Part shown: positions 234 through 60,447 of the stretch, piece after piece
Layout: every line of letters starts with the position of its first letter
Position numbering within the stretch: position 1 is the first letter of the stretch
NCBI GenBank assembly: GCA_036971615.1
Contig: JAYKKR010000021.1
Span: 620,001-684,000, forward strand
DNA length: 64,000 bases
Direction of reading: 5' to 3'
From: Amyloporia xantha
Taxonomy: Eukaryota; Basidiomycota; Agaricomycetes; Polyporales; Adustoporiaceae
Made by a program: the position numbers and the translations under genes
Notes under the pieces: model-generated
Database searches by the model: none
What the model was told of the DNA's origin: nothing
What the model saw: the letters and a program-made list of their open reading frames with translations, nothing else

Positions 234-297
234 TAGGCTCGTGACCATCCGTTTCGTTTGACACTCCGACGCTCCGCTCTCTACGTTACCGAAACGG

Positions 298-394
298 CTG
301 GGCAAACTGGACGCGCGTCTAGGGGGTCCTGATGGATTCCCTTCTTTGGGGGGTCGTGTGAAAACGAACTTAGCGAAATCGCGACGTTTGCGCT
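298..394 (+). repeat. Left inner inverted repeat of the RecQ/DUF6589 element
   Basis: Starts CTGGGCAAACTGGACGCGCG and pairs with the reverse complement of 7085-7181 over about 97 nt with only a few mismatches. It abuts a hairpin (arms CCGTTTCG at 249-256 and CGAAACGG at 290-297). Confidence 0.9.
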
Positions 395-553
395 ATATGT
401 ACATGTACCGCCAGTACCGCCGCAATACAAGAGACCTCTTCGAACGACTCGCTCATGCTGTCTTCGCATCATCCTATGTTCGAACAAGCTTCCTCAACAC
501 CAAGTCAAGCCATGGCCTGACCTCTGCATCCGACTGTCACCCGTAGAACGCAG

Positions 554-3292
554 CTACCGGCGTGCTTGAGAGAACGACGCCCAGAAATTGTCGTAGGATG
601 GAGGCTTGTCGGCCGCTCGTGAGTCGGCATGTTTTGTGCTCCCTCCAGAGGGATGTGTTGGCCTGTATGTCCCCAGGGTGCGGGATGCAGATCCTGTGAG
701 CTCGGTGGTGTGTGGTATTTGAGGGGACGGATGCGACAGTCTAGGTATATTGGAGGCGACTGATGCTGGGACAGCATGCGCGTGTGACAGTGATGACTGT
801 GAGGCCTGCGCAAATGGCGTTGAGGCAGCCTGGGATGAGACGGAAGACATGTCGGATGTAGTCGACTCAGGATTGGTGATGCGATGCGAGGCAGGGTTCC
901 GCGTATGCGATTTCTTTCTGGACGGACCTGACGTACGAGATACAGCTATCGGAACAGAGGGATCATCATGGATAGTGTCTTCATGTGGACGTTTCTTTGG
1001 GGTGACTGTCTCCGGGAGGTGCTCGGACCCTGGCAGCACTAGGACCTGTCCATGACGAGTGTCATGGGCTAGTTGTGTATCTGCGATCACATTGACAGTG
1101 GATTGTGTGCGTGTGACGTTCTGGACATTCATAGAGGCATTCAGAGGGCCCGAAGGCTGCTGGACTTTCGTCTTCCGTCGGCGAGGAGTATATGTGATAT
1201 CGAGGGACAGCATGAGAGCTGTAAGTTCCTGACCATGACTGTCCCACCAGTGCCATGTGGGCTTGAGCAACATCGCCAAGGAGTGTGCAGAGATAGGGCC
1301 ACCCGTGCATAATTGTTCGATCACAGAGTCGTCCAGAATGGATGTTGAGTCAAACTGTGCGTGCGCATGGTCCCGCTGAAAGACCGCTTCACGCCATGAG
1401 TGAAGACGATGCTTGACTTCTAGATCTGGCATGCCTTTGCGGCATGCCTTGGCTTTGGGATCTTGTAAAATCGTGCCAGGACGGGTCCTGGTGAGTTCGG
1501 ACGGATGACAGATATCACAGCAGGGAACTATCGGAGCTAGCAGAGGAGGTCAGACCTGATAGCCTACACCGCCTAAATAGACTTACAGGTATTAAGCGGA
1601 CTCTCGAACACATGCGCCCACACTTGGCGCCGACATTGGACGCTTTGCACGAATACAAGGAGACCTTCATCTGACGCATCGGGACTGACAGCTGGCTGTT
1701 GGCCGGTGGGGATGCTGTCATTTTTGGAGGTGCCACCGCGATCAATGCCATGAGCGAGAGCATACTCTTTAGCTGTTTTCGCCTCGGTGGTGGATTTGCG
1801 GCCCTTGTTCTCCTGTTTGTTTTTGACTTTGCCTCGTCCTCGGGGCTTCTGTGAGGTCGGTACGTCAACAATGTCTGACCCAGAGCTGCTCAGGTTGACA
1901 CTATATGCTGAGCGTTCAGCAATGAGGACAGCAATTCCGGTACGACCATGGCCACGCGCAGCTCGCCCCGCACGCTGTATGAAGTTGGAAAGTGTCGAAG
2001 GCAGCTTCCATTGCACTACGATATCAATATCGGGGATATTGCAGCCCTGGTTGTAGAAGGTGAGTCATAATGTTTACTCTTGTACTGATATTTGGGGCTC
2101 TCGCAAGCTTACCATCCCTGCAGCATCCGTGCATACTAGTATACGGATCTCCCCAGAGCGGAATTTCTCCATCGCAGCGACCTTGTATTCATGCGATAAT
2201 GTGGCATTATATGGACGGACAATTGTCGGTGGTAGAGAGGGCTCCAAGGGATCGTTCCATGGTCGTGATTGTATCTTGTTAACAAGATAGTCTACAATCT
2301 CAGTGCCAACATTGATATTATCAACATAGATGTACGTCTTGGGAATATCCGTGGGGCTCCCGAGAATTGAGGGGAGGACAAAATCGAGATCAGCAAAGGA
2401 GTTCATCGGGTGCTCAGCAGCGCGGACGACAATGGTAACATTGGGACGGTCATTTCCTACATTCACAAAGCGACTGCCCATTTTGGGAAAATGGAGTTTG
2501 CTCTGTATATCTCGGCGCACTCGAGCTGTCAAAGTGGCAGTGACAGCAACCACAGGCGTATGACGTGGCAAGAATGCACGAATAATACCCAAAGAGGAAT
2601 ATTTCTTTCGGAAGTCAGCCCCCCAATGAGAGATGCAATGCGCCTCGTCAACGAAGAGTGATATCACTTTCCGAACAAACGACGGCTGGCGCAGGACCCG
2701 ATTAATGAAGGTGCGAGACTGGAGCATCTCCGGTGAGGCTAAGACAATTTGATATTTACCGGACACAATTTTCTAATCATGACAAGATCAGCGCCAGTAA
2801 CAGAATAGGAGTGGACGGCCCTGACCTTAGCGACATCAATGGAGCAAGACCCATTTTGACTGTTGATCGCGATGGCATGAAGGCCAAAATCTTTCTGAAA
2901 GGTATGAACCTATTAGAGAGTTGATTAGCATTGACAGTGTGAGTGCACTGTGTCCGAACCATTTCGTCTTCGAGGGCCAGCAAAGGCGACACCATAATGG
3001 TCACCTTGTTGGCATTTCCAGGCCAAAGGTGCGGCCCTGCAGCCACCGCAGTCTTGCCAGATCCTGTCGGGGCTTGGATGATAGTGTCGACTCCTTCTAT
3101 CTGAGCACACACCCCAGCGAGCTGAAAGGGCCGAGGGTCTGAGTCCCAGCCATACTTCTCGCGCATGAGCTTTGCTAATTGTTCCATGTCCTGTTCAGTG
3201 AGCTTGGGCCGCGCCGTGTGCAGCTCTGGCTGCTCTTTGCGAATGGCCCATGCTTGCTTGGGAGGATTTCGGCGGGGAGCACCACGGGCCAT
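554..3292 (-). CDS. RecQ-like DNA helicase, 5 exons
   Basis: Joined exons 3292-2960, 2909-2826, 2772-2113, 2046-1587 and 1527-554 give an uninterrupted 836-residue protein. All four introns are GT-AG and keep frame. Visible helicase motifs are Walker A (APTGSGKT, about residues 74-81), the DEAH box followed by CISHWGADFRKKY (about 181), the SAT-like VTATLTA, and motif VI QRAGRAARG (about 383). A RecQ-type zinc subdomain follows: a Cys in QCRRQ, then PCCDIC about 17 residues on. It lacks the usual two-residue spacer between the first two cysteines of that cluster. The last 280 or so residues are Ser/Thr-rich and unrecognised; I see no HRDC domain. It would be an ATP-dependent 3'-5' DNA helicase by family. 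It shares a 174-bp intergenic region with the DUF6589 gene. Confidence 0.9.
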
Positions 3293-3466
3293 AGTCAAGA
3301 CCAAAATGAGAACAGCAAGTCCAGGAGAAAATTGTCTGACCCCTAACGGCTCAGACTCGATCATGATCGGGGAGTCAGCCTCAGGTGGTATAATATAGAT
3401 ACTCTTCATGTCCTCACATTCGTGCGAGCCACAAAATTGTATGCGCAATCTGTATCACAGTTCAGC
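3293..3466. promoter_or_regulatory. Shared divergent promoter of the RecQ/DUF6589 element
   Basis: The 174 bp between the two start codons must hold both promoters. No specific element stands out. The location is inferred only from the divergent gene arrangement. Confidence 0.55.
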
Positions 3467-6400
3467 ATGGACGAGATTGACTACACTGTACTATTCGATG
3501 GACTCACTCGATTTTCCTCTGGGCTCTCATCAAATCCCTCCACACCCGATCACGCTCCGAGCCCTCCTGCAGAGTCAACTGAGGCTGCCCTCGAGCCAAC
3601 TACACCACAGCATGATCAGATCAACACGATCCGAGCCTTCTCTTCAAGTAGTGGCCCCGCATACTCCTCACCTATTAGGGGCACTCGTGCCGAACGCAAT
3701 GCCACAATCCGTCGCAAAGCGCAGCGAAAACGTTTGGCTACTCTGGACGAGCAGAAGCTCGAGCAGGCACAGCGCGAAGCTGAAGCAGCACAGGCGGCCT
3801 ACGAAGCTGCTATGAACGAGGCAACAGGAGATCTGGGAGACAACGAAGATCTCAAAGACAACGAAGATCGTGCCTCAGCGCCCGCAGACGCAGTTCGGCC
3901 CCCCTTGCTTGATGAAGTGTCTGCGAGAATACTTGCACTTCTGCAAGAACACAATTTCTTTTGGGGCGAGTTTGTCCTGTACATGTCAGATCCAGACTCA
4001 AAACAAGGCGAAGAGCGTTATCGAGGCATGTTTGGGATTCCAGGGCTTGTCGAGAAAATCCTTGATTTTTGGATATCATCCCGAAACAGCCAGACAGGCC
4101 GTCGGACAGTGGATAGATGGGTCATGGCATACATGGCCGAAATGGTCGGTCGCGAAGGGCATGCAGCGACCCGCAACGGGCTTCTCCAAGCGCACAAGAT
4201 GAATGTCAACGAATCTTTCGCTCTCGGATTTAGTCTCACTGCGATATATTCACAGCTCAAATTACTATGTCCATGCATGACCACCTTGATGTTCGAATTC
4301 AGTATGACCACGAAGCAGAAGAAGAATATTACTGCACATACCTCACTTCGTAATGACAAGGTAATTCATGGCTCTCAAACTGCATAGAATAAGCGCATTC
4401 CTGACATAAACCCATCAGCGTGTCGGGGCCGCGGTCGTCGACCTTCTAGGTGAACGTAGCCAGAAGAATAGCTATGTTAAGCAAGTACTCGGCCTATACA
4501 TGTATGCCACAGGCGCCCAGCGTCAGCTTTTGAGTGTGCTTGCGCATCTGGGTTTTTGCAGCAGTTATCCGACACTCGCAGGGACAGGGTCTCAACAACT
4601 GAGACGACAATCCCAAGTCAGATCAGTGATCAGTGAGGACTCCGAAGACAATGGGCCGGATTCAGAATGGGAGCCCGACTCAACCTCATCCACCGACTCG
4701 GATTCAGACTCAGAATTTGACTCTGACTCCGAGCCATCTGATGATGAAGAACCGACTCCGAGTCGACTTGCCCCCCCCATGTCCTCAGACCCAGACCCCA
4801 AGGCGAAGACCACACATCGCGGCTCTGGTTTGCTCAATCGATTGTCCGAAGCATGTCGGATTACTGCACGCACGCAAGCCAGCCTCCATCCCCTCGGTCA
4901 CGTCTACGACAATATCAACTTTATGTTTCGAGCTGCTGAGCAGATCCTTGGCCGCAAAGACTCGCAGGAAAATGGCACCTGTGCTACCATATTTCCACTG
5001 TATGCCGCCGAGCCTGCCTGCATGCGCACCTGCGATCTCGTTACTGCATTCAATATCGCTGAGCCGCTTCGGGTTGCCGATATCCTCCTCTCACCGACCG
5101 AAGAAGCCATGTTCCATCAGCAATTGGAGCATACCGTGCTTCGTACAATTGTCCTCTTTGGTGGTCCTATATTTGCCAAGTTCAAGGACGAAGTCAGACA
5201 AACTCTGCCATGCACACCAGAGAGAATCCCGTTGCACCAGACCGAGATCTATCCCCTACCAGCTATGCATATCGACGAATCCAGCACGACTGGAAATGCT
5301 GAAGTGATGGAGACCATCTTCTCCGAACTTGGTCAGGACATGACAGCACCAGGATTTGGCGACACTGTGAAGTTAATCTTCGGTGATCAATTGTCCATCG
5401 CACGTCTACGGGCCCTCATGAGCCACAGAGCAGGTCATGACAGCTTTAACCAGTCATACCTTTATGCCGCATTTGGGCCTGGATTATTTCACCACCAGAT
5501 GGCTGCGACTCATGGAACAATCGAAACGCACTGGGGCGATCCGAGCACCGGTTCCCGAAATCCTGGATGCCTCTCTTTTCACAACATCATCCTAGACCGA
5601 AAACCAATTGTACTCTCGTCACTCCCCTCCTATCGGACATGCCGCGATTTAATCTTCACATCGTTGTATGCTCGAATCCTGCATTGTCTGGAGCTTGTCA
5701 CGTCCTGCGCAAGCCTGGATGACTACGCCCAAAACGTCACATTCAATGAATTGCAAATCCATGTGAAGGAGATCGTCGCTAAGTTTGCTAGTACATCTGT
5801 CGTTTCAAGGTTGCGGCACGAGCGTCAGCTTGAAACCATTGAATGGGAGCAGAAACGCGGACGAACTACCCACCTACCAAATGTCACAGATCCCATCGCG
5901 GACACTGCACCGGCACCGACCAAAGGTGATATGGTCTTCGAAAACGCGGTCCTCTTCATGCGGGATGCCCTCGTCCTCCGCGAGCTAACGGATGCCATCA
6001 AAATTGGTGATTCAGGCAGGATCATCATTTGTCTGAAAGTTCTCGCTCTCAGCTATCGGGGAAGCGGACGCACGAAATATGCGCACGAGCTCCTGTTTCT
6101 TGTACATAATTTGGCACATATTTGGCCGAAGCCTCTACGGTACGTGTCCCCTTGGTTCGTGTGAGCTGTGTAACCAGATCTGTAATCTTCAGCACCATTA
6201 TAATCAATAATTGGTTGGTCAATCCTACCGGCAAGATGGACTCATGGGTCCCTGTTGATCTGCTTCAGGAGCACATGAATTTCTGGATTAAGGCCAGTGC
6301 TCCGATTCGCAGACCTCTCTCTTGTTAACGGAACAATACAGACCATCTACAAGGCACAAGGAAGTAACGCGTCCTGGGAATGGCTCGCGATGATCGCGCC

Positions 6401-6938
6401 TTGTATCAGTATACTGCGTCAGTTGGCAACGGAAATCAATGGAGCCCTAGGATCCAAGCAAGGCACCAAGCACGCGGCCCCAGATTTGACAAAAGACATC
6501 GCGGAGCTCAAACGTTCGCTGGATCAACATCGCGTTTACAAGATTGAATATGGTCGTGTTATAGAAGGCGCGAAGTCAGTGGTACCGAATGTGGTCGCTG
6601 CGGGACTCAACCTGCTTCCTCAGCCGTTACGAGAATACAATGCGCTGATTGAACAGCTGAAAAAGCGACGGTCGACAACAGCTTTGGTGGGACCGGCTGT
6701 GGCGGCTGCTCGCGATGATACCACGGCATCTGTCATGAGTACGAGAGGTGCCGTGAGAGATGTAGGTGAGGGGCATACTAGCGAGACGGTCATAGAAGAG
6801 GAATCCCAGTCAAGTGGCGACGAAAGTGATACAGACGAGTCCGATGAGGAGGAAGCGGCGGGGGAGGATCTAGACGTCGATGAGGCACTCTCACTGGACA
6901 CAGAAGAGGACGTGGCTCTTGATATGGACGGCTTCTAA
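3467..6938 (+). CDS. DUF6589-type protein, candidate transposase, 4 exons
   Basis: Exons 3467-4360, 4419-6139, 6193-6292 and 6342-6938 give an intact 1103-residue protein. The start (MDEIDYTVLF) is the Met nearest the divergent neighbour; an in-frame Met at 3422 is possible. The N-terminal 130 residues are Ser/Pro-rich with a basic coiled-coil stretch. A conserved-looking globular part follows. Next comes an Asp/Ser-rich linker (about 350-400), and then a domain with LIFGDQLSIARLRAL (about 620) and NNWLVNPTGKMDSWVPVDLL near the C-terminal third. Those two motifs are what I recognise as DUF6589, a family abundant in mushroom genomes. The tail is acidic. The donor of the third intron reads GC (6293) rather than GT. 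A transposase role is inferred from its position inside a TIR element; catalytic residues are not established. Confidence 0.82.
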
Positions 6939-7084
6939 ACGGCTTGTAATCCCACGAGATGTCACAGGTTTACGATATGATGGAGATTCGAACAGCGTGG
7001 GCACTACAATAGTCAAGCGGCGCGAGGAAAGTCGGAATATACTTCAATTTCAGACTCTCGTCTGAATCCCCTTGTGTTCTCTAG

Positions 7085-7181
7085 AGCGCGAACATTGCGA
7101 TTTCGCTAAGTTCGTTTTCACACGACCCCCCAAAAGAGGGAATCCATCACTACCCCCTAGACGCGCGTCCAGTTTGCCCAG
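7085..7181 (-). repeat. Right inner inverted repeat of the RecQ/DUF6589 element
   Basis: Reverse complement of 298-394 with few mismatches. Ends AGTTTGCCCAG at 7181. Confidence 0.9.
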
Positions 7182-7182
7182 T

Positions 7183-7256
7183 CGTTAGAATGCACACATG
7201 CCTTTTCACACTCCGCCCCTTTCCCTAAAAGGCATGTGTTCACGTGCATTCTAACG
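7183..7256. repeat. Hairpin at right end of the RecQ/DUF6589 element
   Basis: Two nested perfect inverted repeats form a long stem. CGTTAGAATGCAC (7183-7195) pairs with GTGCATTCTAACG (7244-7256), and ACACATGCCTTTT (7194-7206) pairs with AAAAGGCATGTGT (7227-7239). It lies between the inner and outer terminal inverted repeats. The left end has a shorter hairpin at the matching place with an unrelated stem. Confidence 0.9.
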
Positions 7257-7276
7257 TAACTGGTTTTACGAGTCTA

Positions 7277-7285
7277 GATCGATTC
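7277..7285. repeat. 9-bp target-site duplication, right copy
   Basis: GATCGATTC, the partner of 225-233. Unit 1 sequence resumes here exactly as in unit 2 after 30684. Confidence 0.93.
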
Positions 7286-7616
7286 AAAACGCGCACGTGA
7301 AGCCACATCTGGGACCACGTGATGAGCGCGCGACTCAAGTTCACAAGTCCCCCAGCCCCGGATCTCGGGTACTGAGAACGCCTCACAAAGGAACGCGATT
7401 TCACGATATTAGATGCCGATACGTAGATACACGAGATGTACGATACACAGACCAGATTAGACGATCGAAGTAGAATAGTAGTAAACGCCCGCCTTCTCAT
7501 CTCTGAACCTCATCGCGCGATGGGCCTGCTCTCCTCATCTCTGAACCTCACGTCGCGAGACGCACCTGCTCTCTCCTCATCGCGGCGCACCTGTTCTTCT
7601 CATCGCGCGACGTGCC

Positions 7617-10583
7617 CTACGACGGCGACAAACAATCAATGCGCAAAAACTTCTGGCCGTTCTGCTCTACGACGAGCTCTGGAACAGATGGACTCATTGT
7701 CAAGGAGCCGTACAGCTGGAATATAAACCGCCCGTCTTCATTCTGAGTGACGCGTTTCGAGAGCATCTTGGCGAACGCTTCATATTCCATACTTGCATCC
7801 GCAGTGTTTGCATCAGCAATCACATATGCTTCATACACCTCCCGAAGAGTCGAGAGGAAAACTATAGGATGAAAGTGAGTGCCGTTACTGAATATACCTT
7901 GCGGCTGTGGCCAGTCAGGAAGTGTATCGGTCTCATCCTTCGGCTTGACTCCATCTGAGCAGTATTGTTTCTTGTGGTTTTCTGATGAGCCGACACCACC
8001 AGGATACTTGATGGAGTGGCACCGATTGCAAGTCTGCACCTTGCGCTGTCCCAGCGATTGAGTAATCAGCGGGCCGATGCTAGCCTATCTGTGTGTAGGT
8101 AGTACAAACTCACCTGCTTCACACCGGGCTTTGGAGCCTCCTTGGCTAATGAGACGACGGAACAGTGCTTTCGCCAGAACGTGTCAGTTCCTTTTTGGGC
8201 TGTGCCACATTGACAGGTAAGTACTAGACCATTTCGGATGGCGAGATAAACAGCCGCGGCGCAAAAGACGTACATGTATAGTCATTAGTACTAATCTTCT
8301 TGATTATTATGGCCTCGACTTCGCCAAGCTTCTCCATCAGTGCCCGAGGATTCTTCGCTATAGTAGATATCTTTTTGGAATTATTCAGCTTCTCAAGGCG
8401 TTGGTTGTACACTGCGGTTGCGGCGACCCATTTCCGCGATGTCATGGAAAACGACGTCCATTGGCCCTCGAGCCGCATGTCCATAAAGAGGAAGAATTCC
8501 TCGTCGGTCTTGATCTCAAGAGCACGTGTGTCGATGCCAGTGAAGATGTGGAAGACGCGTTGCGAACGCGACAAGCCCGATAGTGCACTTTTCTGCTCTG
8601 TAATCGGAGGAGGAGGTAGCGGAGTAGAGAGGGCAGCAAGATGCAGAGAAGCCGCCTGCGAATCCGCCACTATCGCATGAGTTATGGATGCTGCTGCGCG
8701 TGAGTCTTTCGGAGTCTCCTCAGATGATCCTACTGGCACTGTGACTGATATTCGGCGTCCAGCTTTGAAAACGCATGGAGCGAGCTGGCCGTACTACCGT
8801 CCATTCTGCTGCCAGTGGCTGATGTGATAGATCGAGAAGTAACAACATGTGGAGCGTCGCTAGCAGGTAAAGTGCTATGAGACTGTAAGTCGAATCCATC
8901 AGCCTTGTGGAGAATGAGCTATGCTATCCGATTCACGGCACATACCGAGCATTCTGACTTCCGAGCTTTCTTTCGTGTTTGCTCTTCCTCCTCATCGGGT
9001 TGTTTTCCTGATGTCATTGCCTTGCGCTTGGGATTTCCAGAGCTGAGCGGAGAATCCGTACACTGAGCTGTGTCCCGCCGCAACTCTGTGTCAGCCGTTA
9101 AATCCTACGCAAGTGTATGGCATTCAGTAAGTCAATGTAGAGTAAGACAAAATGCCAAAATGCTTACAATTGTCATGGTAGCTCTGCGGTCTGTTGCCAC
9201 TTCGCGATCTGCGCGTCGAGCAAACTGGAGCGGTGTATCGACAAGTTGCGACTCTGCTGCATTGGATGCAGTCTGCGGCTTGGAGACACCGATGGTAGCC
9301 TGTGAGTGTGGCCGTGCAGCGGGATTGAGAGGAGCGCTGGGTCGATGTTGAGGTCGCACATCACGGCAGCGGGATCAAATCCCAACTCATCTTCTGGGTT
9401 GATCTCAATTGCAGATTTGAGTAGGTCCGTATCTTCTAATTCTGATTCGTCCTTCATCACTATAAGGCCACCAAATGTTGCAGCATATTCGGAAATAACA
9501 AGGCCAAAGGTTTTGGCACTTGCAATGACTGGAAGAATCGGCAGCAAGTCAAGATTCGGGGATGAAGGCAGATTCATCTCCTTAGAGGTGAGAGAATTCC
9601 AGAAGGTGTTGGTGTAATTGACGAGTCGTGTGTGGTGTGATGCGTGAGTCGATCTAATGAAAGTATTGGGCTTCCCTGAGACGCTCGCTGCCTCAGCGCG
9701 CGCAAAGCCGATTCGGACATTTCGTCGAAGCACGAAGTCATGTCCAAGAGCTGTGAAGACCTCTAAGCCACTCGCAAAGGAACGCATGATTGAGTTCCAT
9801 CCCTTGTGTGAGCCCTCTATACGACTACCGTCAGCAGCAATATCGTCTCGTAGCCGTTCTAGGCAGCCTTTCTTGACATGCGTGAGTTGATCGGCATGTA
9901 CCTCATCACCAAAAGTAAGTGATTTTCTTGACGATGAACGGCGCAGCGCGCTCACCTTCGTTGCGGCTGCAGACCAAACGTCTCCTTTACGCGCCCACTT
10001 CTCAAACATACTCTGCAGCCTATTCTCTTGTTCGTCCCGACTCCAGTACTCTGCGGTAACCCCCTTGCTTGCGCGCGTCTTCAGAATCGAATCGACAACA
10101 TCTTTAGCCACGGCTGAGCGATATGGATTCTTGGTGCCATTGAGGATAGCTGCCAGATAACTTGGATCAATCCGTAAGTATCTGTTTGATTAAGATGTTT
10201 TGAGAGTTCATGCTCACCGCATCAAGAGATGATATACATCAAGAACAACGCTAGCCGTCGGCATCGACTTTTGGATGGACGCACGAACGTGACAGCAGTT
10301 GTCTGCAACAACCATCTCTGGCTGTTCGGCACCAAGCTCATCGTAGCGCCGCTGTATTCCTTCCAACAGTTCTTCAATCTCTGCGTTTGCCTGGGTCTGA
10401 CAAAGACGCTGTAGCAAATCATGTGAGGACAAGCAACGTACTTTAGCTATTCAAGTAAGTACCCAGCCTATAATTTCATTGTTCTCGTTTATGACACTGA
10501 TAATTCCTCCTTTGATTACCTTTGTACGGGGCTGAGCACGCTCCGCGATTGTAGCCTTGCCGGCGGATTTGAAGGTAGCATCG
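7617..10583 (-). pseudogene. U transposase, unit 1, 3' part (cut by KDZ1)
   Basis: C-terminal two thirds of the U transposase gene; see the unit 2 entry for domains. It runs from the KDZ1 insertion point down to the stop at 7617. The break falls on codons of the S-L-D-A-T motif, the presumed first catalytic aspartate, so the gene is disrupted. It contains the second Asp motif (VADNCC), the Glu motif (EGSHKGWN) and the C-terminal zinc-binding part (CQCGTAQ...CNRCHS). Against units 2 and 3 it has one G fewer near 9320, and, like unit 2, a one-base-shorter T run near 8768 that breaks the frame there. Confidence 0.85.
10577..10583. repeat. 7-bp target-site duplication of KDZ1, left copy
   Basis: AGCATCG, repeated at 27970-27976. 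Units 2 and 3 carry the single uninterrupted site GGTAGCATCGAGAGATAAGC. Confidence 0.9.
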
Positions 10584-27969: not shown

Positions 27970-29452
27970 AGCATCGAGAGATAAGCAGACACCTAGAGAT
28001 TGTAGGTCAGTTAGCAATGGTTACCATGTGCGTGAGACTATGTCTGACCTGACAGGGTTTTCACGTATTCCATTGATTCCTCTCGTCGGGTTTTCTTGAT
28101 AAAATCAAGATATATATCGGTGATTAGGTCGTCCGTAATCGGCTTATCGTCATAGTCTGCAGTGCGTGGATCGGCGAATGGCGAGAGCCTGTTCGGCTTG
28201 AATGGGCAAGGCCGGCGTTCATGAAATCTTTGCAGATACTCTAGTCGACGCTTGTGGTACTCAAGAATATGAAGTTCTGATGAATGGTGAAGGGTGAGAA
28301 GAATAATGATCTCTGGGAGGAAAATACTCACGTTTTATGTGTTCGGATAGTCCTCCGGAGGTCATCGTTGGACGAAGCTCAACAACAAGGTTGAACAGGT
28401 CGCGCGTCACCCCGCAGCGCTGAAAGAAGACGGGGATACCATCTGCAGAATAAGGTTCGCATCATTGTTGTCTATAATGGGAATCGAGCAGCGACTCACT
28501 CGGAATCTGCCAATGCTCCCATTTCTGCCAGAATACAGGTGTTGTCGTTGCAAAACAGTACTGGCCGTCTTTTCCAGCTTGGGCCTGACATTGGCGACAG
28601 CGAAGTTGATAACCTAGGGCGCATTCCTCGTACTGAATCCCGTGCAGCTCGCGATGTCCAGTCGTCGTCCAGCTGTCCCAGCGAACATCATTGCTGTCTG
28701 TTGTATTGCACTGGGGGCATCGTCGCAGGTTGTCGTAGAAGAATGGATGTATGACATTCAGGGGCTTGAGGTATGTCGTTATTGGCTCTATAGTAGGTGT
28801 CGTATTCCGTTTCTGAATATTAAAATATGTTGGCGGCAGAAAACAAGGCCCGTAGATGGGAACCTGGATCTTCAGAGCCGGTGGGACAGTATCCTTCCTC
28901 GCATTACCGTGCACTTTCGTCTTGTCGTAAACCCAATTGACATATTCGACGACATGTGCTTCCCACTCGAGCTGAGGCTGTGAGCGGGACTGGGTCTGTC
29001 GATACTTTTCCCAGTTCAAAATGCGACTGTTGACCTATCCTCAGGTGAGCCCCTTTTTTGTTTGACTAGCACAAAGTGTGGTATTTGACTCACATTGTTT
29101 TGCCATTTCTCATCGAAGCTGGAACGTTCGACAGGAGGTAGGCTATTTTTTATAATTGATCGGATCACTGCAGGCTCAAAGGCAGACATAGCAGTCAGCC
29201 TTATGTTTTCGAGGTGCACAACCGTAGCAACAAGAGGATAAGAAAGCAGCGAGTGAGCCTGCGCTCAGCCGCCACGGCGATCATACCTATATTCGGTGCG
29301 GAAGCAAAGCGGCTTCCTGTAGTAAGCTCGCTACCCTTGAAACACTGACCACTGGCAGCTTGACGCATTTTCATGACGCCTAGAGTTTCCTTCACGTACT
29401 CGTCACAACGGTTAACGTCTAAACGACAAGCCGATAGGAACTTTTGTCCCAC
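27970..29452 (-). pseudogene. U transposase, unit 1, 5' part
   Basis: N-terminal third of the U transposase, identical in layout to unit 2. It holds the exon starting upstream of 29452, then VIRSIIKNSLPPVERSS, the zinc-ribbon-containing exon (29034-28495, RRCPQCN...QLRCRQCQ), and the exons down to the KDZ1 insertion. It is separated from its 3' part by 17.4 kb. Confidence 0.8.
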
Positions 29453-30596
29453 AGAGTATCTTAAATCAAATTACCATATATCTGGTTCAGCAGCAGTTGT
29501 ATAGCTTGTACGAATGCGAAAACATATTGCAATTATATACATTCTTTGAGTACTGACATGGGCGGGGTATCATCTCCTAAGTCTGCTACTGTCTCTTCAT
29601 GGCGCCAGAACAACACGACAAGAGTGGTGCAGGCAATCCGGCAACTTGAAGCTCAGGCTTCCTGGCAACCGTTCAAGTGAATAGTGCAGGGGATCGTGCG
29701 AGCCGGTGTTGTGAATAGGAGGTCATTTTCACAAAAATGATGCTTGAAACATCTTCATTACTAACTCGGCATTGGGACATCTACATCATGCGACCTTCAC
29801 AAAACACTTACATACCACGCCTATTATCCTGCGCAAATAAATTACATACTGTCCACTACTAACCTCCCGTCATTAGACACAAGTCCACTCACATTTTTGC
29901 TGAGAAGACATGATTCGCCAGACAGCGGGAGTCAAAGCAGCAGCGGGCGGCGTCGACAAGAATCCTCTGATGTGCCCATCCAACGGCCATACATTAACTA
30001 ACTCTTCTATCACAGACTAATGCCGCACACATGTCCGAGCAGAATGCGCATATTAGTATCCCTGCAGGCACACCGACGATGTGCAGCTTACCATGCTCCG
30101 CCGACGGCTTGAGGATCACAGGGAGAGGGAGGTGTTGGTGTCAGACACAATTAGAATAAAAGCATCTATTATCATCAACAGGAATCGAGTGTCGGCACAA
30201 CAAGCACGCTCGGGAAGTTCTGGAAGAAGTAATAATGATAGTCATCAATGCATCTGTTGAATCTGCATCACACCGGAGAAAGAAGACACCGCAGATTGAA
30301 CTCACCTAGTTCCTATACCAGGTAATGATAGGACAGCGAGAGAATAATGAACGGCCGCCCTCGATGTATTGTTCAACCAGAGGGTTGGTAATGTCAGAAC
30401 ACTGAATCTGGACGAATCGGCGAACCATGGGTACGGTACAGCTTAAGCGATGAGACGCTCGCGAAGCCAGAGCGCATCAAACTCTCTGCTAGGCCCCGGA
30501 AAACCCTGGGCAGCAATCTGAGACGCGGGTGAAACCTCCCCAGGCATAAAAGCGCCCGCCTGCGGCGAGCAGCTCCCCTGGAATAACCATATTCTC
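29453..30596. other. U unit 1 non-coding end
   Basis: About 1.1 kb upstream of the U gene. It presumably holds the promoter and 5' exon(s) not resolved here, and ends at the unit junction. The same region recurs at 35458-36603 and 60448-61591 almost unchanged. No separate gene seen. Confidence 0.6.
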
Positions 30597-31013
30597 TTGA
30601 ATGGCAACCCCGCCATCCCAGGGGATGTTCGGAGCGATTCGGTCGAGCGAAATGACCGATGCGCGACCGTTAGGATCGATTCAAAACGCGCACGTGAAGC
30701 CACATCTGGGACCACGTGATGAGCACGCGACTCAAGTTCACAAGTCCCCCAGCCCCGGATCTCGGGTACTGAGAACGCCTCACAAAGGAACGCGATTTCA
30801 CGATATTAGATGCCGATACGTAGATACACGAGATGTACGATACACAGACCAGATTAGACGATCGAAGTAGAATAGTAGTAAACGCCCGCCTTCTCATCTC
30901 TGAACCTCATCGCGCGATGGGCCTGCTCTCCTCATCTCTGAACCTCACGTCGCGAGACGCACCTGCTCTCTCCTCATCGCGGCGCACCTGTTCTTCTCAT
31001 CGCGCGACGTGCC

Positions 31014-34000
31014 CTACGACGGCGACAAACAATCAATGCGCAAAAACTTCTGGCCGTTCTGCTCTACGACGAGCTCTGGAACAGATGGACTCATTGTCAA
31101 GGAGCCGTACAGCTGGAATATAAACCGCCCGTCTTCATTCTGAGTGACGCGTTTCGAGAGCATCTTGGCGAACGCTTCATATTCCATACTTGCATCCGCA
31201 GTGTTTGCATCAGCAATCACATATGCTTCATACACCTCCCGAAGAGTCGAGAGGAAAACTATAGGATGAAAGTGAGTGCCGTTACTGAATATACCTTGCG
31301 GCTGTGGCCAGTCAGGAAGTGTATCGGTCTCATCCTTCGGCTTGACTCCATCTGAGCAGTATTGTTTCTTGTGGTTTTCTGATGAGCCGACACCACCAGG
31401 ATACTTGATGGAGTGGCACCGATTGCAAGTCTGCACCTTGCGCTGTCCCAGCGATTGAGTAATCAGCGGGCCGATGCTAGCCTATCTGTGTGTAGGTAGT
31501 ACAAACTCACCTGCTTCACACCGGGCTTTGGAGCCTCCTTGGCTAATGAGACGACGGAACAGTGCTTTCGCCAGAACGTGTCAGTTCCTTTTTGGGCTGT
31601 GCCACATTGACAGGTAAGTACTAGACCATTTCGGATGGCGAGATAAACAGCCGCGGCGCAAAAGACGTACATGTATAGTCATTAGTACTAATCTTCTTGA
31701 TTATTATGGCCTCGACTTCGCCAAGCTTCTCCATCAGTGCCCGAGGATTCTTCGCTATAGTAGATATCTTTTTGGAATTATTCAGCTTCTCAAGGCGTTG
31801 GTTGTACACTGCGGTTGCGGCGACCCATTTCCGCGATGTCATGGAAAACGACGTCCATTGGCCCTCGAGCCGCATGTCCATAAAGAGGAAGAATTCCTCG
31901 TCGGTCTTGATCTCAAGAGCACGTGTGTCGATGCCAGTGAAGATGTGGAAGACGCGTTGCGAACGCGACAAGCCCGATAGTGCACTTTTCTGCTCTGTAA
32001 TCGGAGGAGGAGGTAGCGGAGTAGAGAGGGCAGCAAGATGCAGAGAAGCCGCCTGCGAATCCGCCACTATCGCATGAGTTATGAATGCTGCTGCGCGTGA
32101 GTCTTTCGGAGTCTCCTCAGATGATCCTACTGGCACTGTGACTGATATTCGGCGTCCAGCTTTGAAAACGCATGGAGCGAGCTGGCCGTACTACCGTCCA
32201 TTCTGCTGCCAGTGGCTGATGTGATAGATCGAGAAGTAACAACATGTGGAGCGTCGCTAGCAGGTAAAGTGCTATGAGACTGTAAGTCGAATCCATCAGC
32301 CTTGTGGAGAATGAGCTATGCTATCCGATTCACGGCACATACCGAGCATTCTGACTTCCGAGCTTTCTTTCGTGTTTGCTCTTCCTCCTCATCGGGTTGT
32401 TTTCCTGATGTCATTGCCTTGCGCTTGGGATTTCCAGAGCTGAGCGGAGAATCCGTACACTGAGCTGTGTCCCGCCGCAACTCTGTGTCAGCCGTTAAAT
32501 CCTACGCAAGTGTATGGCATTCAGTAAGTCAATGTAGAGTAAGACAAAATGCCAAAATGCTTACAATTGTCATGGTAGCTCTGCGGTCTGTTGCCACTTC
32601 GCGATCTGCGCGTCGAGCAAACTGGAGCGGTGTATCGACAAGTTGCGACTCTGCTGCATTGGATGCAGTCTGCGGCTTGGAGACACCGATGGTAGCCTGT
32701 GAGTGTGGCCGTGCAGCGGGGATTGAGAGGAGCGCTGGGTCGATGTTGAGGTCGCACATCACGGCAGCGGGATCAAATCCCAACTCATCTTCTGGGTTGA
32801 TCTCAATTGCAGATTTGAGTAGGTCCGTATCTTCTAATTCTGATTCGTCCTTCATCACTATAAGGCCACCAAATGTTGCAGCATATTCGGAAATAACAAG
32901 GCCAAAGGTTTTGGCACTTGCAATGACTGGAAGAATCGGCAGCAAGTCAAGATTCGGGGATGAAGGCAGATTCATCTCCTTAGAGGTGAGAGAATTCCAG
33001 AAGGTGTTGGTGTAATTGACGAGTCGTGTGTGGTGTGATGCGTGAGTCGATCTAATGAAAGTATTGGGCTTCCTGAGACGCTCGCTGCCTCAGCGCGCGC
33101 AAAGCCGATTCGGACATTTCGTCGAAGCACGAAGTCATGTCCAAGAGCTGTGAAGACCTCTAAGCCACTCGCAAAGGAACGCATGATTGAGTTCCATCCC
33201 TTGTGTGAGCCCTCTATACGACTACCGTCAGCAGCAATATCGTCTCGTAGCCGTTCTAGGCAGCCTTTCTTGACATGCGTGAGTTGATCGGCATGTACCT
33301 CATCACCAAAAGTAAGTGATTTTCTTGACGATGAACGGCGCAGCGCTCACCTTCGTTGCGGCTGCAGACCAAACGTCTCCTTTACGCGCCCACTTCTCAA
33401 ACATACTCTGCAGCCTATTCTCTTGTTCGTCCCGACTCCAGTACTCTGCGGTAACCCCCTTGCTTGCGCGCGTCTTCAGAATCGAATCGACAACATCTTT
33501 AGCCACGGCTGAGCGATATGGATTCTTGGTGCCATTGAGGATAGCTGCCAGATAACTTGGATCAATCCGTAAGTATCTGTTTGATTAAGATGTTTTGAGA
33601 GTTCATGCTCACCGCATCAAGAGATGATATACATCAAGAACAACGCTAGCCGTCGGCATCGACTTTTGGATGGACGCACGAACGTGACAGCAGTTGTCTG
33701 CAACAACCATCTCTGGCTGTTCGGCACCAAGCTCATCGTAGCGCCGCTGTATTCCTTCCAACAGTTCTTCAATCTCTGCGTTTGCCTGGGTCTGACAAAG
33801 ACGCTGTAGCAAATCATGTGAGGACAAGCAACGTACTTTAGCTATTCAAGTAAGTACCCAGCCTATAATTTCATTGTTCTCGTTTATGACACTGATAATT
33901 CCTCCTTTGATTACCTTTGTACGGGGCTGAGCACGCTCCGCGATTGTAGCCTTGCCGGCGGATTTGAAGGTAGCATCGAGAGATAAGCAGACACCTAGAG

Positions 34001-35457
34001 ATTGTAGGTCAGTTAGCAATGGTTACCATGTGCGTGAGACTATGTCTGACCTGACAGGGTTTTCACGTATTCCATTGATTCCTCTCGTCGGGTTTTCTTG
34101 ATAAAATCAAGATATATATCGGTGATTAGGTCGTCCGTAATCGGCTTATCGTCATAGTCTGCAGTGCGTGGATCGGCGAATGGCGAGAGCCTGTTCGGCT
34201 TGAATGGGCAAGGCCGGCGTTCATGAAATCTTTGCAGATACTCTAGTCGACGCTTGTGGTACTCAAGAATATGAAGTTCTGATGAATGGTGAAGGGTGAG
34301 AAGAATAATGATCTCTGGGAGGAAAATACTCACGTTTTTTTATGTGTTCGGATAGTCCTCCGGAGGTCATCGTTGGACGAAGCTCAACAACAAGGTTGAA
34401 CAGGTCGCGCGTCACCCCGCAGCGCTGAAAGAAGACGGGGATACCATCTGCAGAATAAGGTTCGCATCATTGTTGTCTATAATGGGAATCGAGCAGCGAC
34501 TCACTCGGAATCTGCCAATGCTCCCATTTCTGCCAGAATACAGGTGTTGTCGTTGCAAAACAGTACTGGCCGTCTTTTCCAGCTTGGGCCTGACATTGGC
34601 GACAGCGAAGTTGATAACCTAGGGCGCATTCCTCGTACTGAATCCCGTGCAGCTCGCGATGTCCAGTCGTCGTCCAGCTGTCCCAGCGAACATCATTGCT
34701 GTCTGTTGTATTGCACTGGGGGCATCGTCGCAGGTTGTCGTAGAAGAATGGATGTATGACATTCAGGGGCTTGAGGTATGTCGTTATTGGCTCTATAGTA
34801 GGTGTCGTATTCCGTTTCTGAATATTAAAATATGTTGGCGGCAGAAAACAAGGCCCGTAGATGGGAACCTGGATCTTCAGAGCCGGTGGGACAGTATCCT
34901 TCCTCGCATTACCGTGCACTTTCGTCTTGTCGTAAACCCAATTGACATATTCGACGACATGTGCTTCCCACTCGAGCTGAGGCTGTGAGCGGGACTGGGT
35001 CTGTCGATACTTTTCCCAGTTCAAAATGCGACTGTTGACCTATCCTCAGGTGAGCCCCTTTTTTGTTTGACTAGCACAAAGTGTGGTATTTGACTCACAT
35101 TGTTTTGCCATTTCTCATCGAAGCTGGAACGTTCGACAGGAGGTAGGCTATTTTTTATAATTGATCGGATCACTGCAGGCTCAAAGGCAGACATAGCAGT
35201 CAGCCTTATGTTTTCGAGGTGCACAACCGTAGCAACAAGAGGATAAGAAAGCAGCGAGTGAGCCTGCGCTCAGCCGCCACGGCGATCATACCTATATTCG
35301 GTGCGGAAGCAAAGCGGCTTCCTGTAGTAAGCTCGCTACCCTTGAAACACTGACCACTGGCAGCTTGACGCATTTTCATGACGCCTAGAGTTTCCTTCAC
35401 GTACTCGTCACAACGGTTAACGTCTAAACGACAAGCCGATAGGAACTTTTGTCCCAC
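31014..35457 (-). CDS. U transposase (DDE-like), unit 2
   Basis: Multi-exon minus-strand gene. The 5' end is unresolved upstream of 35457. The exon ending SRFASAPNI joins VIRSIIKNSL, then WQNN joins VNSRILNWEK (acceptor near 35039). Domains in order: a zinc-ribbon-like segment RRCPQCN...QLRCRQCQ; a catalytic-core-like region with SLDATFKSAGKA (about 33960-33980), VADNCC (about 33700) and EGSHKGWN (about 33200), which I read as a DDE triad; then a C-terminal zinc-binding part CQCGTAQ...CNRCHS. It resembles fungal proteins annotated with DUF6729, but that name is from memory. Frame breaks in this copy: a CC run near 33072 and a T run near 32165, both one base short. A 21-nt stop-containing segment at about 33840-33860 is unexplained. 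Confidence 0.78.
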
Positions 35458-36603
35458 AGAGTATCTTAAATCAAATTACCATATATCTGGTTCAGCAGCA
35501 GTTGTATAGCTTGTACGAATGCGAAAACATATTGCAATTATATACATTCTTTGAGTACTGACATGGGCGGGGTATCATCTCCTAAGTCTGCTACTGTCTC
35601 TTCATGGCGCCAGAACAACACGACAAGAGTGGTGCAGGCAATCCGGCAACTTGAAGCTCAGGCTTCCTGGCAAACCGTTCAAGTGAATAGTGCAGGGGAT
35701 CGTGCGAGCCGGTGTTGTGAATAGGAGGTCATTTTCACAAAAATGATGCTTGAAACATCTTCATTACTAACTCGGCATTGGGACATCTACATCATGCGAC
35801 CTTCACAAAACACTTACATACCACGCCTATTATCCTGCGCAAATAAATTACATACTGTCCACTACTAACCTCCCGTCATTAGACACAAGTCCACTCACAT
35901 TTTTGCTGAGAAGACATGATTCGCCAGACAGCGGGAGTCAAAGCAGCAGCGGGCGGCGTCGACAAGAATCCTCTGATGTGCCCATCCAACGGCCATACAT
36001 TAACTAACTCTTCTATCACAGACTAATGCCGCACACATGTCCGAGCAGAATGCGCATATTAGTATCCCTGCAGGCACACCGACGATGTGCAGCTTACCAT
36101 GCTCCGCCGACGGCTTGAGGATCACAGGGAGAGGGAGGTGTTGGTGTCAGACACAATTAGAATAAAAGCATCTATTATCATCAACAGGAATCGAGTGTCG
36201 GCACAACAAGCACGCTCGGGGAAGTTCTGGAAGAAGTAATAATGATAGTCATCAATGCATCTGTTGAATCTGCATCACACCGGAGAAAGAAGACACCGCA
36301 GATTGAACTCACCTAGTTCCTATACCAGGTAATGATAGGACAGCGAGAGAATAATGAACGGCCGCCCTCGATGTATTGTTCAACCAGAGGGTTGGTAATG
36401 TCAGAACACTGAATCTGGACGAATCGGTGAACCATGGGTACGGTACAGCTTAAGCGATGAGACGCTCGCGAAGCCAGAGCGCATCAAACTCTCTGCTAGG
36501 CCCCGGAAAACCCTGGGCAGCAATCTGAGACGCGGGTGAAACCTCCCCAGGCATAAAAGCGCCCGCCTGCGGCGAGCAGCTCCCCTGGAATAACCATATT
36601 CTC
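35458..36603. other. U unit 2 non-coding end
   Basis: About 1.15 kb containing the presumed promoter. A stretch at 35560-35620 reads VADLGDDTPPMSVLKEC on the minus strand and could be an upstream coding exon; it is not joined confidently. Otherwise nothing seen. Confidence 0.55.
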
Positions 36604-37020
36604 TTGAATGGCAACCCCGCCATCCCAGGGGATGTTCGGAGCGATTCGGTCGAGCGAAATGACCGATGCGCGACCGTTAGGATCGATTCAAAACGCGCAC
36701 GTGAAGCCACATCTGGGACCACGTGATGAGCACGCGACTCAAGTTCACAAGTCCCCCAGCCCCGGATCTCGGGTACTGAGAACGCCTCACAAAGGAACGC
36801 GATTTCACGATATTAGATGCCGATACGTAGATACACGAGATGTACGATACACAGACCAGATTAGACGATCGAAGTAGAATAGTAGTAAACGCCCGCCTTC
36901 TCATCTCTGAACCTCATCGCGCGATGGGCCTGCTCTCCTCATCTCTGAACCTCACGTCGCGAGACGCACCTGCTCTCTCCTCATCGCGGCGCACCTGTTC
37001 TTCTCATCGCGCGACGTGCC

Positions 37021-37569: not shown

Positions 37570-37679
37570 GAGCCCATTCAGTCATTATAGCCTACTCTAT
37601 AGGGAGAGATATGGGTGAAATTTTTATTACTTAGTAAGGAGAGCGGACGTCGGCCGACGCCATCGCTATAGCCTGCAGT

Positions 37680-38712
37680 GCAGGGTCGGCCGAGAGGGTA
37701 TAATATAGCCTGTAGATACGGCGCGGCCGAGTGCGCCATATTTCCGTAGTATATTCTCGCCTTCAAGTAGTGTCGGCCCAGGGCTATAATATAGCCTTTA
37801 GATACGGCGCGGCCGAGTGCGCCATATTATCGTGGTCTATTCTCGCCTTGAAGTAGTGTCGGCCGAGGGCTATAATATAGCCTTTAGATACGGCGCGGCC
37901 GAGTGCGCCATATTTCTGCGGTATATTCTCGCCTTCAAGTAGTGTCGGCCGAGGGCTATAATATAGCCTGTAGACACGGCGCGGCCGACTGCGCCATATT
38001 TCTGTGGTATATTCTCGCCTGCAAGTAGTGTCGGCCGAGGGCTATAATATAGCCTGTAGACACGGCGCGGCCGACTGCGCCATATTATCGTGGTATATTC
38101 TCGCCTTGAAGTAGTGTCGGCCGAGGGCTATAATATAGCCTTTAGATACGGCGCGCCGACTGCGCCATATTTCTGTGGTATATTCTCGCCTGCAAGTAGT
38201 GTCGGCCGAGGGCTATAATATAGCCTGTAGACACGGCGCGGCCGACTGCGCCATATTATCGTGGTATATTCTCGCCTTGAAGTAGTGTCGGCCGAGGGCT
38301 ATAATATAGCCTTTAGATACGGCGCGGCCGACTGCGCCATATTTCTGTGGTATATTCTCGCCTGCAAGTAGTGTCGGCCGAGGGCTATAATATAGCCTGT
38401 AGACACGGCGCGGCCGACTGCGCCATATTATCGTGGTATATTCTCGCCTTGAAGTAGTGTCGGCCGAGGGCTATAATATAGCCTGTAGACACGGCGCGGC
38501 CGACTGCGCCATATTATCGTGGTATATTCTCGCCTGCAAGTAGTGTCGGCCGAGGGCTATAATATAGCCTGTAGACACGGCGCGGCCGACTGCGCCATAT
38601 TATCGTGGTATATTCTCGCCTGCAAGTAGTGTCGGCCGAGGGCTATAATATAGCCTGTAGACACGGCGCGGCCGACTGCGCCATATTATCGTGGTATATT
38701 CTCGCCTTGAAG
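37680..38712. repeat. KDZ2 left subterminal array, about 91-bp unit
   Basis: Eleven or so tandem copies of a unit with landmarks AGTAGTGTCGGCCGAGGGCT, ATAATATAGCCTGTAGACAC, GGCGCGGCCGACTGCGCCAT and ATTATCGTGGTATATTCTCG. Copies alternate between two or three close variants. The inverted counterpart is at 55795-56445. Confidence 0.93.
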
Positions 38713-38749
38713 TAGTATATTCCGCCCTATTGTTTCCTTTTCTACGCTT

Positions 38750-40890
38750 TAATTATATGCATTTCAATAAATCTCATGCTGTATGTATAATAATAATAAT
38801 GCCTCGCCATCCATTAGGCTTTGCAATCTGTCATTCATCACGACGTTTCGTGTGTGGTCAGGTCAGTGGTGTGACTACAATTCAAAGCGCAAGGACTGAT
38901 TGGCCATTTCCGACGGCTCCATACACCCCACCCAAGACACGCGCAGAGACAGGGCCATCTTACATGTGTCCTTCAAAGGATCCAGCTGTGTGGACCCTTT
39001 GTGGGACACAGATCCAATGGCCATCTCAAGCGGCAGCATCGCGCTATATTCTACCGCTATACATATTTCATGTACGCTAAGGTCATTTGAACTGGATCTA
39101 CCCACCTACCAGCATCTAATACATATTCTCGCCCAACCCAAGACACGCGCAGAGACTGGGCCATCTGATATGTGTCCTTCAAAGGATCCAGCTGTCTGGA
39201 CCCTCTGCGGGACACAGATCCAATGGCCATCTCCAGCGGCAGCATGCGCTATGGAATCATGGCGCCACCATGTCCAGACGCGCTATGCAACCATGCGCCA
39301 CGTACCTTGCCTGCCACATTGTGAGGCGTATGGCACGCAGGTGTTATGATGTGCTGGCGCTGTTGGACGGGGCCATTTCATCCTTGCTACCCTGGGTCAC
39401 CCAGAGGAATCGAATCACCGTCCACGTTTTGAGAGTACCCCTGATGCTGATGGACAATTCAGCTGCATCCGGAGTACTCATGGCGCGGAAGGCAACTCGA
39501 TTCCACTGGTGAACGTAGAGAGCAAGGAGTTAATGGGTTTATCCAACAGCGCCTTGCATGAATGAGTCAGACTCCAGACAGGAAGACTTGACTTATGTTC
39601 CTCCGAGCCGCATACCTGTGGCTCAGAAGGACATAAGTCAAATGGGCCTTGTCCGGCGGCGACGGGCGCCAGCAGGTGTTATGATGTGCTGGCGCTGTTG
39701 GACTGGGCCATTTCATCCTTGCTGCCCTGGGTCAGCCAGAGGAATCGAATCGCCGTCCACGTTTTGAGAGTACCCCTGATGCTGATGGACAAATCAGCTG
39801 CATCCGGAGTACTCATGGCGCTGAGGGCAACTCGATTCCACTGGTGAACGTAGAGAGCAAGGAGTTAATGGGTTAATCCAACAGCGCCTTGCATGAATGA
39901 GTCAGACTCCAGACAGGAAGACTTGACTTATGTTCCTCCGAGCCGCATACCTGTGGCTCAGAAGGACATAAGTCAAATGGGCCTTGTCCGGCGGCGACGG
40001 GCGCCATCTGATGGCGAAGTGCATGCGCGCTCATGCTCGCTGTTGGGAGATGGCGCTATGGCTCGCCTGACAGGGCGCCTTCATCTATGGTCTTCAGAGC
40101 CGCATACCTGTGGCTCTGAGGGCCACAGACTGAAGTTGCGCTGTCCGGCGGCGACGGGCGCCATCTGATGGCGCCGTGCATGGCGCGCTTATGCTCACTG
40201 TTGGGAGATGGCGCTATGGCTCGCCAGACAGGGCGCCTTCATCTATGCTCTTCAGAGCCGCTTACCTGTGGCTCCGAAGGTCATAGAAGAAGGGGCCTCG
40301 TTCAGCGGCTATATGCGCCATCCGATGGCGCCGTGCATGGCGCGCTCATGCTCACTGTTGGGAGATGGCGCTATGGCTCGCCAGACAGGGCGCCTTCATC
40401 TATGCTCTTCAGAGCCGCATACCTGTGGCTCCGAAGGTCATAGATGAAGCCGCCTCGTTCAGCGGCAATATGCGCCATCCGATGGCGCCGTGCATGGCGC
40501 GCGCAGGCGAGGCACATGGTGCGCAGCCGGCGTGATGTGCTGGCGTTCTCGACCTGCATGATTCCTCAATGCTACCCTGGATGAATCGAATCGCCATCCA
40601 ACCATTGTTGGATGGCCATCCGATTCAGCTGCTTGAATACCAAGGCCATTGAAGAATTGGCTGGCGCAGAAGGACGTCATGCATTTATGCACTCACCGCG
40701 CAGACGAAACGGATACATACGCCACCTGAAAACACCCACCTTTGACATGGCGCGATGTCCAAAGAGCATGATTTGCTGGCGTCCTCGAGCTCGGCCATTC
40801 GTCAATGCTACCTCGAAGTTAAGCGTCTGAATCGCATCGCCATCCACATGATTGGATGGTAATGTGATTCAGCCGCTTAAATACAAGGTC
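38750..40890. repeat. KDZ2 complex repeat region
   Basis: About 2.1 kb of layered repeats without a convincing gene. A 100-bp block (CAAGACACGCGCAGAGAC...) occurs at about 38933 and 39140. A block of about 335 bp (GCAGGTGTTATGATGTGCTG... to GGCGACGGGCGCC) is duplicated in tandem at about 39337-39670 and 39671-40008. A unit of about 165 bp (GGAGATGGCGCTATGGCTCG...) occurs three times between 40045 and 40440. Two related blocks near 40560-40650 and 40800-40890 contain GAATCGCATCGCCATCCA-type sequence. Reading frames here are repeat by-products. Confidence 0.8.
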
Positions 40891-56544: not shown

Positions 56545-56551
56545 GGAACAG
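56545..56551. repeat. 7-bp target-site duplication of KDZ2, right copy
   Basis: GGAACAG, the partner of 37563-37569. Confidence 0.9.
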
Positions 56552-59500: not shown

Positions 59501-60447
59501 TCTGCCAATGCTCCCATTTCTGCCAGAATACAGGTGTTGTCGTTGCAAAACAGTACTGGCCGTCTTTTCCAGCTTGGGCCTGACATTGGCGACAGCGAAG
59601 TTGATAACCTAGGGCGCATTCCTCGTACTGAATCCCGTGCAGCTCGCGATGTCCAGTCGTCGTCCAGCTGTCCCAGCGAACATCATTGCTGTCTGTTGTA
59701 TTGCACTGGGGGCATCGTCGCAGGTTGTCGTAGAAGAATGGATGTATGACATTCAGGGGCTTGAGGTATGTCGTTATTGGCTCTATAGTAGGTGTCGTAT
59801 TCCGTTTCTGAATATTAAAATATGTTGGCGGCAGAAAACGAGGCCCGTAGATGGGAACCTGGATCTTCAGAGCCGGTGGGACAGTATCCTTCCTCGCATT
59901 ACCGTGCACTTTCGTCTTGTCGTAAACCCAATTGACATATTCGACGACATGTGCTTCCCACTCGAGCTGAGGCTGTGAGCGGGACTGGGTCTGTCGATAC
60001 TTTTCCCAGTTCAAAATGCGACTGTTGACCTATCCTCAGGTGAGCCCCTTTTTTGTTTGACTAGCACAAAGTGTGGTATTTGACTCACATTGTTTTGCCA
60101 TTTCTCATCGAAGCTGGAACGTTCGACAGGAGGTAGGCTATTTTTTATAATTGATCGGATCACTGCAGGCTCAAAGGCAGACATAGCAGTCAGCCTTATG
60201 TTTTCGAGGTGCACAACCGTAGCAACAAGAGGATAAGAAAGCAGCGAGTGAGCCTGCGCTCAGCCGCCACGGCGATCATACCTATATTCGGTGCGGAAGC
60301 AAAGCGGCTTCCTGTAGTAAGCTCGCTACCCTTGAAACACTGACCACTGGCAGCTTGACGCATTTTCATGACGCCTAGAGTTTCCTTCACGTACTCGTCA
60401 CAACGGTTAACGTCTAAACGACAAGCCGATAGGAACTTTTGTCCCAC
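56552..60447 (-). pseudogene. U transposase, unit 3, 5' part
   Basis: All of the U transposase except its last exon and part of the preceding one. This copy has an intact core exon (58499-57519, through EGSHKGWN) and the longer T run near 57154. That run keeps MDGSTASSLHAFFKAG in frame with the following PVGSSEETPKD, whereas units 1 and 2 break there. It therefore gives the best guide to the true protein. The gene is disrupted by KDZ2. Confidence 0.83.

Follow-up and report, generated by a model that had tools for sequence, protein, structure and literature searches.

A DNA transposon of probable AcademH type in Amyloporia xantha carries a DUF6589 gene and a RecQ-like helicase gene

The Academ superfamily of DNA transposons comprises the lineages AcademH and AcademX. 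According to the available excerpts of PMC10045372, a paper on IS481EU, AcademH elements produce duplications of 9 or 10 bp and AcademX elements of 3 or 4 bp, a difference related to a helicase in the former versus a nuclease in the latter. AcademH is described as present at low copy number in Basidiomycota, Ascomycota and Mucoromycota, and the domains DEAD and Helicase_C are tied to AcademH and KolobokH jointly (PMC10799480, in excerpts). The name AcademH dates from 2020 (Kojima 2020, Mob DNA 11:15; known to us via citing papers) and by the title of that report the range includes animals. Here we examined a stretch of 64,000 nucleotides from the basidiomycete Amyloporia xantha (the window; contig JAYKKR010000021.1, here C14:620001-684000 of the 46.8-Mb assembly; plain coordinates are window positions). 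An earlier note on this DNA had proposed a terminal inverted repeat (TIR) transposon that pairs a RecQ-like helicase with a DUF6589 protein, and this was supported. Judged by published descriptions, the element is probably an autonomous DNA transposon that belongs to AcademH. It has exact TIR ends that begin with TAGNCT, 9-bp duplications and two intact genes, and the two genes co-occur across copies and species.

Insertion site, ends and copies

The element comprises 7,043 bp (234-7276) between two copies of the 9-bp target-site duplication GATCGATTC (225-233 and 7277-7285). The same 9 bases are present once at two empty sites in paralogous repeats of the window, 30674-30682 and 36681-36689. 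The flanks of the element (148-233 and 7277-7500) match both sites at 100%, which confirmed the exact insertion claimed earlier. Two further paralogous empty sites, in C12 and C23, were more diverged. The fifth occurrence of GATCGATTC, at 44824, was rejected as unrelated sequence (167 mismatches in 249 bases). A copy in contig C21 (405951-413050, 7,100 bp; 85% identity by alignment, 84% by search) starts and ends with the same bases as the C14 element and has CAGGCGCGC on both sides. Because this is an independent full-length copy with a 9-bp duplication of its own, chance is excluded.

The left terminus TAGGCTCGT (234-242, plus strand) and the right terminus TAGACTCGT (7268-7276, read on the minus strand) agree in 9 of the first 12 bases of the ends. 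Farther inside are the inner arms of the inverted repeat, 105 nucleotides each (293-397, plus; 7082-7186, minus) and 91% complementary. Thus, terminal and inner inverted repeats are present as had been noted. On each side the long inverted repeat is split by an end-specific foldback; its start lies inside the first 15 bases, and its closing motif is CTGGGC(A/G)AACT. The right foldback (7178-7263) had a DNA-fold z of -5.6, and none of 200 shuffled sequences folded as well. The left one (242-304) was weak and not significant (z -1.0; 31 of 200 shuffles folded equally well or better). The right end of the C21 copy scored -5.8, and the left and right ends of a copy in contig C58 scored -5.1 and -2.6. 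At the ends of a copy in contig C55 no significant foldback was detected (0.3 and -0.1). The stem sequences differ between the ends. A subterminal foldback may be the symmetry of a binding site or a real hairpin. Foldbacks with unlike stems were seen at the same place in the C14/C21 and C58 elements (window 234-308 and 7157-7276; L011 1264-1403 and 8040-8133).

CGTCCTCCC borders the C58 copy (1923763-1930632; 6,870 bp) on either side. The copy at C25:42892-58952, which lies between two TGTAGTTGC repeats, has lost internal sequence and contains two nested insertions. In C1 two copies of 6.3 kb each, 99.7% identical, are in opposite orientation (C1a, 3662006-3668326; C1b, 3670249-3676573). Their outer and inner flanks (AGTCTGAGT, GGATACGCT; region C1:3661993-3676586) match crosswise as reverse complements. 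This suggests that recombination between two copies, each with a normal 9-bp duplication, inverted the 1.9 kb that separates them. The C55 copy (545124-551403) is flanked by GCTGCAAC, which is 8 bp, or 9 bp with a shared terminal A. Both ends begin with TAGNCT in all seven copies. The duplications are perfect 9-bp repeats without consensus at six of the seven insertions, C1a and C1b being read through the presumed inversion and C55 being the exception. For two solo ends, C21:204943 and C1:4504391, no partner with a matching duplication was found within the 4.5 kb fetched around each. At the two nested insertions of the C25 copy, the matched stretches on either side share 5 and 8 bases, which resemble the duplications made by other types of element.

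The two genes and a probable mode of transposition

The DUF6589 gene (3467-6938, plus strand) has four exons without stops (3467-4360, 4419-6139, 6193-6292 and 6342-6938) and encodes 1,103 amino acids in C14 and 1,117 in C21; in both copies its third intron is of the GC-AG type. The main exon matched Pfam DUF6589 at 6.8e-103, and this was the only family to reach the cut-off in scans of the transposase frames and of the proteins P0002 and P0201. A plain Foldseek search gave nothing significant. Among the solved folds that were re-aligned, the closest were those of hAT (Hermes), P element and Transib/RAG1 transposases, at middling Z. Fold match and conservation point to a catalytic triad of D462 in the motif YDNIN (codon 4908-4910), D621 in GDQL (5385-5387) and E898 in QEH (6269-6271), all on the plus strand. 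DUF6589 is thus probably a DDE transposase, judged by a predicted fold and conserved D/D/E residues. The transposase role proposed for it earlier gained support. Two distant DUF6589 proteins, P0164 from Amylostereum chailletii and P0172 from Cytidiella melzeri, have N at both of the first two predicted catalytic D positions and look degenerate; they were retained in the counts.

The helicase gene (554-3292, minus strand) has five exons (3292-2960, 2909-2826, 2772-2113, 2046-1587 and 1536-554) and encodes 839 amino acids in both the C14 and C21 copies; the C14 model is free of internal stops. With the four-exon and five-exon models the presence of two complete genes was established. The helicase has the Pfam domains DEAD and Helicase_C. 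The closest PDB sequences to its third exon are RecQ, WRN and RecQ5, and recQ_fam (TIGR00614) matched at 8e-45, yet under the curated cut-off. By sequence the protein has a RecQ-type SF2 core; the accessory domains RQC and HRDC gave no Pfam match at E 0.01. The start codons of the two genes are 174 bp apart, from which a single central promoter for both may be surmised.

Between C14 and C21, the ratio of nonsynonymous to synonymous divergence (dN/dS) was 0.147 in the transposase gene and 0.161 in the helicase gene (own Nei-Gojobori script). Both genes are under purifying selection. The two copies form a mosaic: the middle windows of both genes had a dS of 0.47-1.13, and in the last part of each gene dS dropped to 0.05 (helicase) and 0.31 (transposase). 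Over its final 43 bases the element does not differ between the copies. Probably, the ends were homogenised by recombination or gene conversion. In P and hAT elements gap repair after excision usually yields homogenised ends and internal deletions. Given such ends in C14 and C21 and the internal deletion in C25, cut-and-paste transposition with gap repair is the likely mode. The DUF6589 protein, predicted to have an RNase H core with an all-helical insertion as in hAT, P and Transib, would bind subterminal repeats and foldbacks and would cut at the TAG ends using D462, D621 and E898. The ends would be joined to target strands 9 bp apart, and filling of the gaps would generate the 9-bp duplication. 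The RecQ-like helicase may unwind DNA at the ends, or may act in donor-site gap repair that copies from the sister or homologue. The latter would fit the deletion in C25 and the homogenised state of the C14 and C21 ends.

Co-occurrence of DUF6589 and RecQ-like helicase genes

A search of the genome with PF20231, in which only the best candidates were scored, gave 14 matches which represent six loci (C14, C21, C58, C55, C1a and C1b), a lower bound for the 46.8 Mb. Each of the six includes a RecQ-like helicase no more than about 3 kb away. The genes are divergent at three loci (C14, C21, C58) and convergent at the other three (C55, C1a, C1b); the proteins of the convergent copies are about 21-24% identical to the DUF6589 protein P0002 in the longer matches. 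At E 1e-5 the genome has nine RecQ-like matches, six of which belong to these loci. The other three, one in C13 and a near-duplicate pair in C18, had no DUF6589 nearby in the 10 and 18 kb fetched, with 3.6 kb covered on the right side in C13. The suggested link to RecQ genes near fungal telomeres thus found no support. The last 4,465 bases of C14, the end of which is about 61 kb from the element, contain no TTAGGG or CCCTAA, from which we claim nothing either way. The C18 pair (C18:164001-182000, L051/L052; the C13 region is C13:45001-55000, L050) is near-identical, in opposite orientation and located beside frames that are Copia-like by eye.

Other species were compared using the best 120 of 384 DUF6589 matches (E < 0.001, one search) and the best 120 of 2,566 helicase matches. 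Entries with a species name and contig were used, 75 and 118, respectively; an unmatched entry does not mean absence. A contig was counted as shared when the species or genus label and the contig size in bases were equal. Among the matches listed 47 of the 75 DUF6589 entries shared a contig with a helicase entry. For contigs below 100 kb it was 11 of 26 against 0.09-0.17 expected for genomes of 60-30 Mb. This expectation is contig size over assumed genome size and is slightly inflated because the Fomitopsis and Panus helicase counts are one too high. A shuffle among contigs already seen per species had no power (47 observed; mean 41.1, largest 51). Three shared contigs span just 5,792, 9,855 and 19,374 bases; on the last one the genes are g2307 and g2309. 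Hence, co-location elsewhere, as anticipated in the earlier note, was observed at all six loci of this genome and on shared contigs in other species.

The named DUF6589 matches, among those listed, are from basidiomycetes and one Entomortierella; no ascomycete or animal relative was noticed among them. The best-match species of the transposase in that set are mostly polypores, as would suit a host in Polyporales. Viral contigs searched with P0002 contained no relative.

Assignment to AcademH and its alternatives

In published excerpts AcademH is a helicase-encoding DNA transposon with 9-10 bp duplications, low copy number and a fungal range including Basidiomycota, and DEAD and Helicase_C are the domains tied to it together with KolobokH. 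The present element shares the helicase with its domains and the duplication length, and may share the low copy number and the fungal range. No difference showed in these described features. The earlier supposition that no named superfamily has this gene pair is therefore probably wrong. The layout matches AcademH, and the element suggests that DUF6589 is the DNA-cutting enzyme. AcademX, the other lineage of the superfamily in these excerpts, differs by its nuclease and by duplications of 3-4 bp instead of the 9 bp seen here. The AcademX nuclease is of the XPG type; Pfam scans of seven main frames and of the helicase after splicing gave no XPG match. The hAT (Hermes), P and Transib/RAG1 transposases have no sequence-family match to the DUF6589 transposase; these elements are not known to encode a helicase, and they have other duplication lengths.

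Two points weigh against an AcademH assignment with DUF6589 as its transposase. The fold matches are only middling in Z and call for caution, and no animal DUF6589 relative was noticed among the matches listed, though the title of the naming report includes animals in the AcademH range. The second point would also favour a superfamily distinct from Academ, with a DUF6589 DDE transposase and a RecQ-like helicase, whose likeness to AcademH, in duplication length and in having a helicase, would have arisen by convergence. In addition, DUF6589 was not mentioned in the literature searched, 'Academ' occurs in none of the names shown, in part, among the matches listed, and there are two deep lineages with different gene orders. 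Yet the 9-bp duplications and the helicase domains agree with AcademH as excerpted, as the low copy number and the fungal range may do, and we consider a distinct superfamily unlikely. Equally doubtful is its more specific form, a DDE superfamily of its own with an obligate RecQ-like partner, two or more ancient gene orders, and end-specific subterminal hairpins in which the stem sequence changes but the pairing is maintained. If true, the hairpin-bearing ends would be the substrate of the helicase, in excision or in gap repair.

A KolobokH element, i.e. a fungi-only Kolobok transposon with a RecQ helicase, is very improbable. Kolobok elements duplicate TTAA; the duplications here are 9 bp without consensus, and the helicase has a gene of its own on the opposite strand. 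KolobokH does encode a RecQ helicase and is fungal, and in one red-algal Kolobok family the RecQ helicase is on the complementary strand (PMC9587614, in excerpts), so layout alone does not exclude it. The C/DxxH signature, according to the same excerpts common to Kolobok, hAT, P, MuDR and Dada (PMC9587614), is not conserved in DUF6589 proteins. Between the second D and the last E it occurs in P0002 only at 507 (DSFH); the window copy reads DSFN at this place, and among 54 relatives no residue reaches a majority in the column. A MuDR/MULE element, which would account for 9-bp duplications, with a captured helicase gene is just as improbable, as the transposase has no MULE Pfam domain and no conserved C/DxxH, and a helicase partner that recurs at all six loci and in other species is no one-off capture.

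The literature searched contained neither DUF6589 nor the term 'Academ transposase', AcademX was named in one paper (PMC10045372), and the parts seen of PMC8290104, PMC12210899, PMC12730594, PMC9674265, PMC4455052 and PMC11075540 had nothing decisive. Naming DUF6589 as a transposase may hence be useful, while Repbase may already imply that it is the AcademH-type transposase. Many mushroom proteins (the 384 matches above) carry DUF6589 as a label of unknown function. With DUF6589 as a probable transposase, their genes and many adjoining 'DNA 3'-5' helicase' genes become mobile-element annotation. The intact gene pair, exact ends and empty sites are a workable substrate to study the role of a RecQ-type helicase in cut-and-paste transposition.

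An Rfam scan of the window returned 0 matches. Large, near-identical direct repeats are located at 7277-10247, 27970-36980 and 56545-61506, with spacings of about 6.0, 23.4 and 25.0 kb; the element is inserted into one copy. A 185-amino acid frame in these repeats (28462-29019) had no Pfam match. An 86-bp tandem repeat is located at 37610-38854 (12 overlapping 300-base stretches in register).
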